Below are positions 9,255-44,440 of a stretch of DNA of 64,000 nucleotides, one piece after another. Source of the DNA: Peribacillus frigoritolerans (GTDB taxonomy: Bacteria; Bacillota; Bacilli; Bacillales; DSM-1321); assembly GCF_001636405.1 (NCBI RefSeq), contig NZ_KV440950.1, forward strand, positions 240,001 through 304,000. Reading direction: 5' to 3'. The position numbers were made by a program, and so were the translations under genes. Under the pieces are notes generated by a model. The model saw only the letters and a list, made by a program, of their open reading frames with translations, was not told where the DNA came from and searched no databases. The first letter of the stretch is position 1. The number at the start of each line of letters is the position of its first letter.

Positions 9255-9446
9255 GTTTCATCCTCCAATTTTTTATTGCCGAATAGGCATATTTATTAAT
9301 AATTTTTATTAAAAAAGATAGTAGTAATAGTAGTAGGCCCTGTTGATATGTGGATAAGTCCACTCAACCTAAGGAAAAACAGTCTATCCACATGTGGACA
9401 GACTGTGTGTAAGTAGTCGCCAGTTATTCACATTATCCAGAATCCA
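9255..9446. other. oriC: oriC, unwinding part (DnaA boxes, DnaA-trio, AT-rich DUE)
   Basis: The dnaA-dnaN gap holds the elements of a Bacillus basal unwinding system in order. An AT-rich stretch runs from 9255 to about 9316. Contiguous DnaA-trios follow at 9317-9336; read leftward they are GAT GAT GAT AAT GAT GAT. Then come a short GC-rich spacer (about 9335-9341), a degenerate box TGTTGATAT at 9341-9349 and an exact box TGTGGATAA at 9349-9357. Further boxes are CTATCCACA at 9384-9392, TGTGGACAG at 9393-9401 and TTATTCACA at 9424-9432. DNA melting is inferred to start on the trio side, next to dnaN. Confidence 0.9.
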
Positions 9447-10796
9447 TTATACCCTCAGCTGGTCCTGGATTTCCTTAACCTGACGTTGAAGCTGGGTGTC
9501 CGTTTGCATGAGTTTGGAGATTTTTTCATGCGCATGGATGACGGTCGTATGATCGCGGCCTCCAAATTCATCACCTATCTTGGGCAGGGATGAGTCCGTC
9601 AATTCCCTGGAAAGATACATGGCAATCTGTCTTGGAAAGGCCACGGATTTAGTCCGTTTTTTCGCCTTGAAATCCTCAAGTTTGACACTATAATGTTCAC
9701 CGACCGTCTTCTGGATTTCCAAGATGGTGATTATTTTAGGTTTTGAGCTAGGAATGATATCTTTTAATGCTTCAGCTGCCAAATCGGCATTTATATCTTT
9801 ATTGATCAATGAAGAATAAGCGACGACACGAATAAGTGCACCCTCAAGCTCACGAATATTGGAATCGATTTGGTTGGCTATATAGAGCATGACTTCGTTC
9901 GGGATATCAAGACCCTCAGCTTTTGCCTTTTTACGCAATATGGCAATCCGCGTTTCCAGATCAGGTGGCGTGATATCCGTAATCAAGCCCCACTCAAACC
10001 TTGAACGGAGGCGATCCTCTAGTGTAGGTATCTCTTTTGGCGGGCGGTCACTCGAGATGACGATCTGTTTGCTTTCTTCATGCAGCGCATTGAATGTATG
10101 GAAAAACTCTTCTTGAGTTTGTTCTTTTCCCGCAAGAAATTGAATATCATCAATTAATAAAACATCCACGCTTCGGTATCTATCACGGAATTCCCCAGCT
10201 TTATTGTCCCGGATCGAGTTGATGAATTCATTCGTGAACTTTTCAGACGATAAATAAACGACCTTCGCATTCGGATTATGCTCTAGAACATAATGCCCGA
10301 TTGCATGCATTAAATGAGTTTTTCCAAGGCCGACGCCCCCGTATATGAATAAGGGATTATAGGCTTTGGCCGGAGCTTCTGCGACAGCGAGAGACGCGGC
10401 ATGGGCAAAACGATTGCCGGAGCCGATGACAAATGTATCGAATGTATTTTTCGCATTAAGCATATGCTGTGGAAATGCAGCATGCTCTTTATCCTGTTTT
10501 TTTATCTTTTTAGGCTGAACAGGAACGGCAAAATCATCATCTTCTTGATTGGGGGGAATGATGAATTTTGCTTCCAATTCCTCACCGGTAAGTTCAAACA
10601 ATACATCGGAAATAAGATGGGAATAGCGTTCTTCAAGCCAATCCCTGGCAAATTCATTGGGAGCGGTGACTGTTAATGTATCACCTTGCAGTAAATAAGC
10701 CTTGGTTGATTTAAGCCAAGTTTCAAAGCTTGGTTTACTGATTTTCTTTTCGATTTTTCCGAGCGCCTGGTTCCAGAGGCTATCGATGTTATCCAA
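9447..10796 (-). CDS. dnaA: Chromosomal replication initiator DnaA
   Basis: AAA+ initiator that binds DnaA boxes and melts the origin. Domain I starts [12 protein letters not shown]. The AAA+ domain has Walker [10 protein letters not shown] (about residues 150-158) and Walker [11 protein letters not shown]. Domain IV contains the DnaA signature [12 protein letters not shown]. The start is TTG at 10796, preceded by AAAGGAGG at good spacing. An upstream ATG in this frame is not needed for the family length (449 residues; B. subtilis about 446). DnaA boxes on both sides suggest autoregulation. Confidence 0.99.
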
Positions 10797-11091
10797 ACTT
10801 ATCCCTCCTTTGCAAAAAAAATTTTAATCATTGTATCTAAATGTATAGGCACAAATAAACTCATCGATTGCCGTCTTCATATTAATTTTGACAGCAAAGG
10901 TTCGGTGAGCTGTATTAAGGAATTTTTGTGTTGTGTAATGTGAAGTGCCCAAAACTATATCTTGCGCTGTACAACCTTTGTACAGACTACATCTGGTGAG
11001 CCAGTGCAGATTTGAATGTTTATTCATCAACAGGTATTTTAAGAAATATATAATAAAGAAGAAAAAAGGGTTTTCGACAATATCCACCATC

Positions 11092-11354
11092 TGTGGACAG
11101 ATTAATATACACAGGTCGGATAAACTATCCACAAGTTATTCACAGTCTGTGGATAAACATTACCTGTTGATAAAGTTATTCAGAGTGAAAACACAAATAT
11201 AATATCAGAAATTCAGGCGTCTTGCAATGGGTTAGAAAACTTTATCCACAACTTACCGGGCTTGTGGGAAAAACTTTTCCACAGGCCATTGTTATGTGCA
11301 AAAGTCTCTAAAATGGGATGTGGATAGAAAAAAACATGTCGAATTTTATCCACA
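11092..11354. other. oriC: oriC, upstream DnaA-box cluster (dnaA-rpmH gap)
   Basis: DnaA boxes crowd this part of the 930 bp dnaA-rpmH gap. Exact consensus TTATCCACA occurs at 11148-11156 (minus), 11242-11250 (plus) and 11346-11354 (plus). One-mismatch boxes are at 11125-11133 (CTATCCACA), 11136-11144 (TTATTCACA), 11275-11283 (TTTTCCACA) and 11319-11327 (minus). A weaker TGTGGACAG is at 11092-11100. Together with the dnaA-dnaN cluster this makes a bipartite origin, as in B. subtilis. The rest of the gap (10797-11090 and 11360-11640) shows no gene I can support. Confidence 0.9.
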
Positions 11355-14030: not shown

Positions 14031-14093
14031 TTATTCACATGTGGATAAGTTAAAATGGTTGTTACAGAATATGGATTAACGGCGTGTGGATAA
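14031..14093. promoter_or_regulatory. DnaA-box cluster between jag and mnmE
   Basis: Three DnaA boxes lie within 63 bp: TTATTCACA (14031-14039), TGTGGATAA (14040-14048) and TGTGGATAA (14085-14093). Two are exact consensus and the first two abut head to head. A DnaA-binding region in the jag-mnmE (thdF) gap is also known in B. subtilis. It may titrate DnaA or regulate mnmE. The rest of the 335 bp gap shows only the jag terminator. Confidence 0.75.
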
Positions 14094-42040: not shown

Positions 42041-43261
42041 TTGGGTTATTATGATCAGAATGATGAGAACCAAAATAAACGGAAAAAAAGCCATACGAGC
42101 TATTTTCTAGCAGGCTTGGGGGGTGCCATCATCGGGGCCTTACTTATTTTATTTGCCTTTCCGGGAAGTGGACTGTTAAATAACGATGAAAAAGAAATGA
42201 CAACGGAAAAATCAACGGAGAGAAGGACCACGGAGCAGTCCCAGCAAAACCTTACTCTTGATGTAACAAGTGCCGTCACCAATGCCGTTGATAAAGCCAG
42301 CGACGCAGTGGTCGGCATCACTAACATTCAGGAAACGAACTTCTGGGGTCAAGGGGGCAACGCCGAGGACAGTTCGGCAGAAGCCGGCACTGGATCTGGA
42401 GTCGTCTACAAAAAAGATGGCGGCAAGGCCTATATCGTCACGAATAATCACGTCATTGAAGGAGCTAATGAACTTGAAGTGACATTAAGTGATGGTACTA
42501 AATTGCCAGCTGAACTACAAGGGAGTGACCCATGGACAGATTTAGCCGTCATTGTCGTTAATGGTGAAAAAGTCAAAACCATTGCTGAATTCGGAAACTC
42601 CAGCAAATTGAAACCTGGTGAGCCCGTCATTGCCATTGGCAACCCATTAGGCCTTCAATTCTCCGGGTCGATCACACAAGGGATCATCTCCGGTTTGGAG
42701 CGCACGATAGAGGTGGATATCAACGAGGACGGACAAGTGGATTGGAATGCGGAGGTCATCCAGACCGATGCGGCGATTAATCCAGGTAACAGCGGAGGGG
42801 CACTCGTTAATATGTCAGGGCAGGTCATCGGAATAAATTCGATGAAGATTGCAGAAAATGCAGTGGAAGGAATCGGTCTTTCCATTCCGATCGATTCAGT
42901 AATCCCGATTATTAATGATATAGAGAAATTTGGTGAAGTGAAACGTGCTTTCTTGGGTGTTAACCTGGCATCTGTAGAAGAAATTTCCCAATACCATCAA
43001 CAAAATACATTAAAGCTGCCAAGGAAAGTTACTTCAGGCGTTGCAATAACAGGCGTTCAAAGCAACTCTCCAGCATCCAAAGCAGGATTGAAGGAATTTG
43101 ATGTCGTAGTTGGAATGGATAATGAAAAAATCCATGATGTAGTGGAATTAAGAAAATACCTTTACAATGAAAAACAAGTCGGTGATAAAGTTAAAATCAT
43201 TTATTACCGTGACGGAAAGAAAGAAACAACGGAAGTCACGCTTTCAAGCAGCGAAATTTAA
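42041..43261 (+). CDS. htrC: HtrA/DegP-type membrane serine protease (HtrC/YyxA-like)
   Basis: Membrane-anchored quality-control protease of 406 residues. An N-terminal helix (about 22-44) is followed by a trypsin-like domain with catalytic His (NNHVIEGA), Asp (DPWTDLAVI) and Ser (NPGNSGGALVN), and one C-terminal PDZ domain (VQSNSPASKAGLKEFDVV). The start is TTG at 42041 after GGTGGGG. The next in-frame ATG lies past the helix start. It sits after walJ as in B. subtilis, but with its own promoter. Assignment to HtrC rests on position. Confidence 0.9.
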   Translation: MGYYDQNDENQNKRKKSHTSYFLAGLGGAIIGALLILFAFPGSGLLNNDEKEMTTEKSTERRTTEQSQQNLTLDVTSAVTNAVDKASDAVVGITNIQETNFWGQGGNAEDSSAEAGTGSGVVYKKDGGKAYIVTNNHVIEGANELEVTLSDGTKLPAELQGSDPWTDLAVIVVNGEKVKTIAEFGNSSKLKPGEPVIAIGNPLGLQFSGSITQGIISGLERTIEVDINEDGQVDWNAEVIQTDAAINPGNSGGALVNMSGQVIGINSMKIAENAVEGIGLSIPIDSVIPIINDIEKFGEVKRAFLGVNLASVEEISQYHQQNTLKLPRKVTSGVAITGVQSNSPASKAGLKEFDVVVGMDNEKIHDVVELRKYLYNEKQVGDKVKIIYYRDGKKETTEVTLSSSEI

Positions 43262-43267
43262 AGCACA

Positions 43268-43310
43268 AAAGGACAGGGGGCAGAAAATGCCTCCTGTCCT
43301 TTCTATTTCC
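43268..43310 (+). terminator. Terminator after the HtrA-like gene
   Basis: A stem AAAGGACAGG/CCTGTCCTTT with an inner GGCA..TGCC pair, followed by a T-rich tract. Confidence 0.85.
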
Positions 43311-43342
43311 TTGCGCTTTTCTTATTTTTTGTTACGATTACC

Positions 43343-43657
43343 TGTGGATATATAGTGAAATTAAAGATCTCAAGTGACTTGTGGATAATTGGGAATGGAA
43401 GAACCGGGAATAATGAATGGGAAAGGAGATATGAAAGATGAAATTATATTGCTGTCAGGAACACGTGGACATGGCGCTGGATGAAGTGGTATACGAATGT
43501 GAAACCTATCCTGTTTTAAAGCTTGTTCCCGAAGAAAATCAGTTATCAACAACCTGTGAATATTGTCGAAACGTGGCAATATATCTAGTAGGGAACTAAT
43601 ATTCCCATACAAGATGTGGATAGATTTTGTGGATATGTGGATAACTTTTGTGGATAA
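43343..43657. promoter_or_regulatory. DnaA-box cluster flanking the CxxH/CxxC gene
   Basis: Six boxes in the same orientation: TGTGGATAT (43343-43351), TGTGGATAA (43380-43388), TGTGGATAG (43615-43623), TGTGGATAT (43628-43636), TGTGGATAA (43636-43644) and TGTGGATAA (43649-43657). Three are exact consensus. The last four span 43 bp. They lie about 34 kb from dnaA in the htrA-rlmH interval; B. subtilis has a known DnaA-box cluster near yydA (rlmH). Likely a DnaA-titrating or regulatory site. Confidence 0.8.
43438..43599 (+). CDS. yyzF: Small CxxH/CxxC protein (YyzF family)
   Basis: A 53-residue protein with the CxxH (CQEH) near its N-terminus and CxxC (CEYC) near its C-terminus, a likely zinc-binding fold of the TIGR04129 type. 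It begins MKLYCCQEHVDMALDEVVYE. ATG at 43438 has AAAGGAG 9 nt upstream; a competing ATG at 43431 is out of frame. Function unknown. The gene lies between two groups of DnaA boxes. Confidence 0.88.
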   Translation: MKLYCCQEHVDMALDEVVYECETYPVLKLVPEENQLSTTCEYCRNVAIYLVGN

Positions 43658-43802
43658 CATGTTTGTAACCTGTTCTTAACATTTTCCTAAGATTAATCCG
43701 GCGGGTGGAATGGTTTAGATTCAAGCATTTGTTATACGAATAATCAAGATAATTGTTCGGATTGGAACTAAGTCCAGACGAATTTCTTCAATAATGAAAG
43801 TT

Positions 43803-43838
43803 ACCGTTGCCGCTTTCAGGGGGCAGCGGTTTTTATTT
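43803..43838 (+). terminator. Terminator-like hairpin before rlmH
   Basis: CCGTTGCC pairs with GGGCAGCGG around a 9-nt loop, followed by TTTTTATTTT. It lies 200 bp after the CxxH/CxxC gene. Confidence 0.65.
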
Positions 43839-43960
43839 TAAAAGCATAAAAAATTGGAAAGGATATGCTTGTTTTGCTTATAGGTCACTGTAAGGTATGA
43901 TAATAGGTAGGCAAATCCAACAATTGATAGTAAAAACATAATGAAAGTTAGAGGATATAT

Positions 43961-44440
43961 ATGAAAATAACGATTATTACTGTTGGCAAGCTAAAGGAAA
44001 AATACTTAAAGCAAGGAATTGCTGAATATACAAAAAGGTTAAGCGCCTATGCTAATATAGAACTTGTGGAAGTACCGGATGAAAAGGCTCCGGAAAACCT
44101 GAGTACAGCGGACATGGACATTGTAAAGCAAAAGGAGGGTGAACGAATCCTGGCCAAAGTCAGCCCGGACACCTACGTAATAACGCTTGAGATCAATGGA
44201 AAACAGCTTACTTCAGAACAGCTGGCCACTCATATGGATCAGCTCGCCACCTATGGAAAGAGCAAAATTGCCTTTATTATTGGCGGGTCGCTTGGACTTG
44301 GCAAAGAGGTGTTATCAAGAAGCGATTATGCCCTTTCCTTCTCGAAAATGACCTTTCCGCATCAATTAATGAAATTGGTTCTTGTGGAGCAAATATATCG
44401 GGCTTTTCGGATAAATAGAAATGAACCATATCATAAATGA
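43961..44440 (+). CDS. rlmH: 23S rRNA (pseudouridine-1915-N3)-methyltransferase RlmH
   Basis: SPOUT-class methyltransferase acting on helix 69 of assembled 70S ribosomes. It begins [20 protein letters not shown], and the knotted SAM site is [15 protein letters not shown]. The C-terminal [11 protein letters not shown] is the family ending. Length 159 residues, as in B. subtilis YydA. Confidence 0.98.

Follow-up and report, generated by a model that had tools for sequence, protein, structure and literature searches.

What does a dense cluster of DnaA boxes do around a gene of only 53 codons, some 33 kb away from the replication origin? The locus lies in the window, i.e. the whole stretch of 64,000 nucleotides of Peribacillus frigoritolerans DNA that was analysed, and a sequence-only reading of this DNA had offered three functions for it: a titration site, a DnaA-controlled switch for rlmH, or a secondary regulatory element. 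Six minus-strand DnaA boxes, three exact and three with one mismatch, were found at 43343-43657, placed around the 53-residue gene and facing the same way as that reading had described. Two of them are 5' of the gene, namely ATATCCACA at 43343-43351, which has one mismatch and overlaps a promoter-like site, and an exact TTATCCACA at 43380-43388. The other four form a tandem array on the minus strand 3' of the gene: box 1 is CTATCCACA (43615-43623), box 2 is ATATCCACA (43628-43636), and boxes 3 and 4 are both exact TTATCCACA (43636-43644 and 43649-43657). Successive boxes start 13, 8 and 13 bp apart, boxes 2 and 3 have one base in common, and the array covers 43615-43657, which is exactly the 43 bp that had been claimed. 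Two weaker boxes inside the gene were missing from the sequence-only reading; one is TTATCAACA on the plus strand (43543-43551), in frame as Leu-Ser-Thr, and the other is ATATTCACA on the minus strand (43555-43563), which covers the codons Cys-Glu-Tyr and has one mismatch to TTATNCACA. The count at the locus is six by the rule of that reading and eight if up to one mismatch to TTATNCACA is accepted.

The density of the boxes was compared with that in 600 dinucleotide shuffles of the 64-kb window. The maximum was two same-strand boxes per 43 bp and three per 315 bp, against four and six observed; the locus thus shares with B. subtilis-type yyzF-yydA clusters several boxes within about 300 bp, above chance. 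Elsewhere in the window, six boxes in 315 bp are reached only at oriC (11125-11354), where both strands were counted, and the statement that the cluster rivals oriC therefore holds within the window. The distance of 34 kb given for oriC compares with boxes around dnaA at 9349-11354, 32-34 kb off. The dnaA gene is the minus-strand ORF 9447-10796, identified by TIGR00362 in its own genome, and the genes to the right of it are, going by their position, presumably jag, trmE and the wal operon. The pattern TTATCCACA-N2-6-TTATCCACA has a single occurrence genome-wide, which is the array.

In B. subtilis, eight predominant DnaA-binding regions have been reported from whole-genome work in vitro, and these are given as the regions bound in vivo (PMC4447404). 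Region 8 is described there as 'upstream of yydA; downstream of yyzF', with seven sites by matrix in 300 bp and an apparent Kd of 0.16 µM for ATP-DnaA and 0.33 µM for ADP-DnaA. The yyzF-yydD operon is apparently repressed directly by DnaA (PMC4447404), and a review places yyzF-yydABCD among eight gene sets under direct DnaA regulation (PMC8203912). The cluster in the window is likewise located at the CxxH (yyzF) gene and 5' of rlmH (yydA), and it resembles region 8 in this neighbourhood and in its number of sites, six to eight boxes against seven. Going by the account in PMC4447404, the kind of site is already known, the yyzF-yydA region being one of the eight major ones. By analogy with the same gene neighbourhood in B. 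subtilis, the six boxes are very probably DnaA sites.

The 53-residue CxxH/CxxC protein is encoded at 43438-43599 on the plus strand, in the position of B. subtilis yyzF, and belongs to TIGR04129, with 65.9 bits against a cut-off of 35. Its identity with yyzF is suggested by position, and the B. subtilis control genome has a match to TIGR04129 as well. On the same strand it is followed by rlmH (yydA; 43961-44440), the gene of the 23S rRNA pseudouridine-1915 N3-methyltransferase, and preceded by the gene of an HtrA-type serine protease (42041-43261), whose matches to HtrA models are strong but all under the model cut-offs (best NCBIfam match E 4.7e-98). The CxxH, RlmH and RlmN proteins score above their NCBIfam cut-offs, and the metallo-hydrolase at 40976 matches general models only. 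A strong intrinsic terminator stands 3' of htrA (43268-43302, plus strand, z -7.46), and therefore the CxxH gene probably starts a new transcription unit. The promoter-like TTGTTA-16-TATAGT at 43329-43356 on the plus strand, which the box at 43343 overlaps, is no better than chance, with one match found in the region against 2.9 expected. No convincing register between promoter and box is conserved 5' of the CxxH gene among the relatives, where -10-like offsets are scattered; the commonest offset, 4, was seen for 13 of 122 boxes and can be produced by GATAAT within the box itself.

A long spacer separates the array from rlmH (43658-43960, plus strand), and the gap between the CxxH gene and rlmH is 365 bp. 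Of the 91 relatives for which the position of both genes was established, 84 have a gap of 72-137 bp. The spacer holds a second hairpin followed by a T-run (43803-43830, plus strand; z -3.61 for 43795-43845), a possible terminator that may uncouple rlmH from the CxxH transcript in the Peribacillus lineage; it is absent from the list given by the consensus terminator scan. A structured RNA leader was also considered and rejected, as the sole Rfam match reached 13.1 bits against a gathering score of 45 (E 0.93) and the fold of the array had a z of 0.18.

Lack of conservation in relatives, one of the two things that the sequence-only reading had said would refute it (the other being no DnaA binding in vivo), was not found. 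The cluster was present at the locus in 120/120 genomes drawn from the order (the window's own included) and at 28/28 named Bacillus loci, which have 8-11 boxes, 2-6 of them exact, per interval and do not include B. subtilis; it is thus conserved between the Peribacillus lineage and the B. subtilis group. TIGR04129 was present in 104 of the 120 order genomes (the window's own included), and 103 of these CxxH loci were placed by script, the remaining one (L104 of genome G065, with a broken CxxH gene) being read separately. Each of the 103 has three or more boxes with at most one mismatch to TTATNCACA, one or more of them exact. The exact boxes number 327 in 53,156 bp at these loci, against 41 in 745,218 bp of flanks, and the reversed consensus gave 4 exact matches in the same intervals; the boxes are oriented 626 on the minus to 164 on the plus strand. 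The reversed-consensus control reached three sites with at most one mismatch in 11 of the 103 intervals, so that 'at least three boxes' is by itself a weak criterion and the exact count is safer. In G065 the cluster is kept, with two exact boxes. Within the genus, all 36 Peribacillus genomes searched match the locus, 16 of them (that of the window among these) along almost all of the 1179 bp and 20 partially or in pieces flanking the spacer, and the cluster was found at 29/29 further genus loci fetched. The locus is real and well conserved. Boxes were counted by script at CxxH and rlmH loci and by reading the box list at L104 and at the eight htrA loci described below; the rows L205 and L206 (fragment hits in one genome) and L001 and L105 (duplicates of the window) were dropped, and L103 was counted in the 103-locus set and left out of the 102-locus set used for geometry and codon counts.

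The 16 order genomes without a CxxH gene all have rlmH. Eight of them carry at least three boxes, at least one exact, within 450 bp 5' of rlmH (the weakest positive, L148, has three boxes and one exact). The cluster of the other eight lies within about 300 bp 3' of htrA in 8/8 cases, and rlmH is found 2-158 kb from htrA, more than 7 kb in six; in these eight genomes exact boxes are absent from the 450 bp before rlmH, and a box with one mismatch occurs there once at most. Since the cluster stays at htrA without the CxxH gene and with rlmH elsewhere, what is conserved looks like a chromosomal site about 35 kb from oriC and not like a switch for rlmH. Of the three functions offered by the sequence-only reading, a titration or replication-control site agrees best with the conservation. 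As the conserved core, a switch for rlmH was rejected on the grounds of these eight genomes, all of which keep the cluster at htrA and have rlmH without one, and it is left with at most a secondary part.

A broader form of this idea is that of a transcriptional operator, in which the level or nucleotide state of DnaA would set the expression of the CxxH gene and rlmH and so couple replication to ribosome modification. The apparent direct repression of yyzF-yydD by DnaA in B. subtilis (PMC4447404; PMC8203912) argues for it, as do the short gap between the two genes in most relatives and the overlap of the promoter-like site with the box at 43343. However, the cluster is kept where the CxxH gene is broken and, in 8/8 genomes, where it is gone and rlmH is far away; the other eight CxxH-less genomes have it before rlmH alone, and in the window a possible terminator stands between the array and rlmH and the promoter match is at the level of chance. 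We therefore regard the operator as unlikely to be the explanation of the locus. Repression of the adjacent unit by DnaA, as in B. subtilis, may still take place here by likeness to that system, the promoter prediction being at chance.

In other orders of the class the cluster is less regular. At least three boxes were present at 18 of 38 CxxH loci and no cluster at the other 20, the 38 being hand-chosen, one to a few per family, from about 142 loci found. The sample of genomes outside the order without a CxxH gene comprised 16 among those listed (69 further ones are outside it), and of the 14 with rlmH, four have at least three boxes and ten have no cluster. Two of these four, G162 and G184, have 10 and 15 boxes before rlmH, which in G184 is about 31 kb from dnaA; in these small-genome relatives (loci L198 and L197) the boxes are dense in both orientations. 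In another genome, a full rlmH is followed 4.5 kb downstream by fragments of its C-terminal half (G169:C3:91544-96766; L193, L205, L206), a pattern expected from an integrated element that duplicates the 3' end.

The spacing of the boxes is also a recurring property. Read on the plus strand, the form found between the CxxH gene and rlmH is TGTGGATAG-N4-TGTGGATATGTGGATAA-N4-TGTGGATAA; its boxes begin at intervals of 13, 8 and 13 bp, and the linkers vary. From one minus-strand box to the next, the distances seen most often are 13 bp (123 times) and 8 bp (66 times). A pair at 12-13 bp occurs in 96 of 102 loci, a triple of 8 and 12/13 bp in 62 (it is missing from 40) and the full quadruple in 34, against 2/1188 control windows for the pair and 0/1188 for the triple, all of these windows coming from loci at least 6 kb long. 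Counted by families with at least one such member, the figures are 42, 31 and 18 of 43. The strict core was found in 46 of the 120 genomes, once per genome and each time at the cluster locus, and the reversed pattern in none; 43 of these cores are at the CxxH gene, two just 3' of htrA with rlmH elsewhere, and one just 5' of rlmH. Among the eight htrA-side clusters, five have 8 and then 12/13 bp, two have a 12-bp pair and one (G086) has neither. Boxes 1 and 3 are separated by 21 bp, as are boxes 2 and 4, which would correspond to two helical turns; boxes 2 and 3 share one base, so that perhaps only one of them can be occupied at a time. Between the array and rlmH there are often one to three TGTTTGTAA-like repeats (e.g. 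L042, L056, L009), which differ from a minus-strand DnaA box by 2-3 mismatches and are possibly weak DnaA sites.

The plus-strand box inside the CxxH gene was followed through its codons. Leu-Ser-Thr precedes CxxC in 71 of 102 loci, and its codons form an exact TTATCCACA in 31 of the 71 and a box with at most one mismatch to TTATNCACA in 63. The threonine codon is ACA in 71/71, against 50% elsewhere in the CxxH gene and 37% in rlmH, and the serine codon is TCC or TCA in 71/71. Synonymous randomisation with the codon usage of rlmH (20,000 runs) gave means of 0.97 exact and 8.3 one-mismatch-or-better boxes, with maxima of 7 and 22; with one locus per family, 15 of 33 are exact and 31 have at most one mismatch, against simulated maxima of 5 and 13, and since the sequences are related these figures are not strict probabilities. 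Among the 31 loci that lack Leu-Ser-Thr, 7 show a plus-strand box in this position, with another tripeptide (e.g. ATATCCACA as Ile-Ser-Thr), and 24 do not. In other orders, all five Leu-Ser-Thr loci possess both the cluster and a box in frame, which is exact in four and has a mismatch in one, and a plus-strand box in the gene was found in 0/20 loci without a cluster; it is likewise absent from 13 of the 18 loci with one. This codon bias, specific to the box, suggests selection at the nucleotide level on a DnaA box inside the CxxH gene.

In the window genome the cluster lies 32.7 kb from dnaA. In 20 genomes with long contigs, the distance between dnaA and the CxxH gene ranges from 27 to 82 kb with a median of 34.9 kb, chromosome contigs being treated as circular if their end falls within this interval. 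Where rlmH lies elsewhere (eight genomes), the htrA end is 31-65 kb from dnaA and rlmH 33-196 kb. The informative cases are G013 and G059, in which rlmH is 196 and 125 kb away and the array 37 and 32 kb. A position near oriC is thus kept, and shared gene order is behind part of this constancy.

The locus is probably an oriC-proximal DnaA sink that restrains re-initiation and represses its neighbours as a by-product. In this explanation, the cluster would be the positional equivalent of the yyzF-yydA DnaA region of B. subtilis, and DnaA, whose binding to the boxes was shown in that organism, would occupy them here too, probably best on the four-box array 3' of the CxxH gene. With oriC about 33 kb away, the site would be copied soon after initiation, and this early copying would double a high-affinity DnaA sink and so help to restrain re-initiation. 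DnaA near the start of the CxxH unit would repress the CxxH gene, as reported for B. subtilis, and also rlmH if the two are co-transcribed. The conserved function would be that of a chromosomal DnaA site, with the CxxH gene and rlmH as neighbours that can be lost or relocated. Titration is inferred from the comparative evidence given above together with deletion data from B. subtilis, in which removal of six clusters led to early initiation, strong only once all six were gone (PMC5295017); the yyzF-yydA region may be one of the six.

The modest phenotypes in B. subtilis and the atypical geometry in its close relatives speak against a sink. B. spizizenii TU-B-10 (L242) and B. haynesii (L257) have no tandem doublet, and a single box on the opposite strand takes the place of the boxes before box 3; three further relatives of B. 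subtilis (L188, L046, L060) show the same loss. The strict core is missing from the three genomes drawn from family f43, which is B. subtilis-group-like, and dnaA lies 74 and 82 kb away in the two genomes of f43 for which this was measured (32.7 kb in the window genome). The geometry of region 8 was compared through these close relatives, read letter by letter, in place of the B. subtilis sequence itself.

The geometry leads to a further proposal, which is tentative and in our estimate rather doubtful: that the order has in this array a dedicated cis-acting element for replication timing, present in single copy, whose 13/8/13 spacing would build a defined DnaA complex that controls initiation. 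In function it would then correspond to datA/DARS, which the group is said to lack, and its geometry would have been preserved along with one box in CxxH codons, and likewise where the CxxH gene is gone and rlmH lies elsewhere. On this view the copy in the close relatives of B. subtilis, and so probably in B. subtilis too, would be a degraded one, and tests in that species may have underestimated the role of the array. A still stronger reading, in which the tandem array acts like datA or DARS by altering the nucleotide or filament state of DnaA beyond passive titration, is considered improbable. The once-per-genome strict core, the recurring spacing and the similar distance from oriC would agree with it, as would the reported absence of datA and DARS from B. 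subtilis (PMC13220808), but ATP- and ADP-DnaA differ only about twofold in their binding to the B. subtilis region in vitro (PMC4447404), and the relatives of B. subtilis that were read lack the tandem doublet.

A cryptic second origin or unwinding site, for which the comparable box density might be taken to speak, is very improbable; it is disfavoured on GC skew, which changes sign at about 10 kb (dnaA), remains positive up to 50 kb and shows no switch at 43 kb, and where it dips below zero, at 50-54 kb, there are two minus-strand ORFs. An origin of the boxes by chance, or as a by-product of coding sequence or of a short tandem repeat, has almost no probability left, since the four boxes do resemble a short repeat but 0/600 shuffles reproduced them, the cluster is conserved throughout the order with variable linkers, and the codon bias is specific to the box.

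The DnaA sink near oriC remains the explanation preferred here. As to how DnaA is limited after initiation in Bacillus-type bacteria, datA, DARS, Hda and SeqA are reported absent from B. subtilis in a 2026 review (PMC13220808). An array found throughout the order, whose spacing recurs and one of whose boxes has shaped the codons of a gene, is strong comparative evidence for selection on at least one DnaA site outside oriC for its own sake. Species beyond B. subtilis appear worth studying in this respect, as its close relatives carry an atypical copy, and the array offers a defined target of 43 bp whose spacing can be altered. In the literature searched, which covers subscription papers thinly and gives a weak negative, no report was found of the order-wide conservation of the cluster, of its once-per-genome 13/8/13 core, of its independence from the neighbouring genes or of a codon-embedded DnaA box in the CxxH gene; a link of a DnaA box to rlmH, or of DnaA boxes to orfX in Staphylococcus aureus, was not found there either.

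Other DnaA-box clusters of B. subtilis (jag-trmE, gcp-ydiF and ywlC) are of the same kind, and groups of boxes were seen at their apparent counterparts here, with genes named by eye. Three exact boxes TTATNCACA are present at 14031-14093 of the window between the putative jag and trmE, the place of a B. subtilis DnaA region. Five exact same-orientation boxes (L264; G000:C1:5416270-5416362) accompany genes resembling that of the ABC-F ATPase ydiF and tsaD/gcp (cf. the gcp-ydiF region), and two exact boxes (L265; G000:C1:425641-425826) are placed around the start of a Sua5/ywlC-like gene (cf. the ywlC region). None of these counterparts matches the strict core of the array, which is single in the genome. 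Three exact boxes were also noticed beside an HflX-like GTPase gene (L261; G000:C1:60262-60345) and two beside a squalene-hopene cyclase-like gene (L262; G000:C1:617812-617837); both sites are outside the top B. subtilis regions as tabulated in PMC4447404. In E. coli, datA and DARS are likewise loci of DnaA boxes outside the origin that regulate initiation (PMC5295017; PMC13220808), and the likeness is drawn without any claim of homology. datA needs IHF and promotes the hydrolysis of DnaA-bound ATP (PMC5295017), whereas IHF is reported absent from B. subtilis (PMC13220808).
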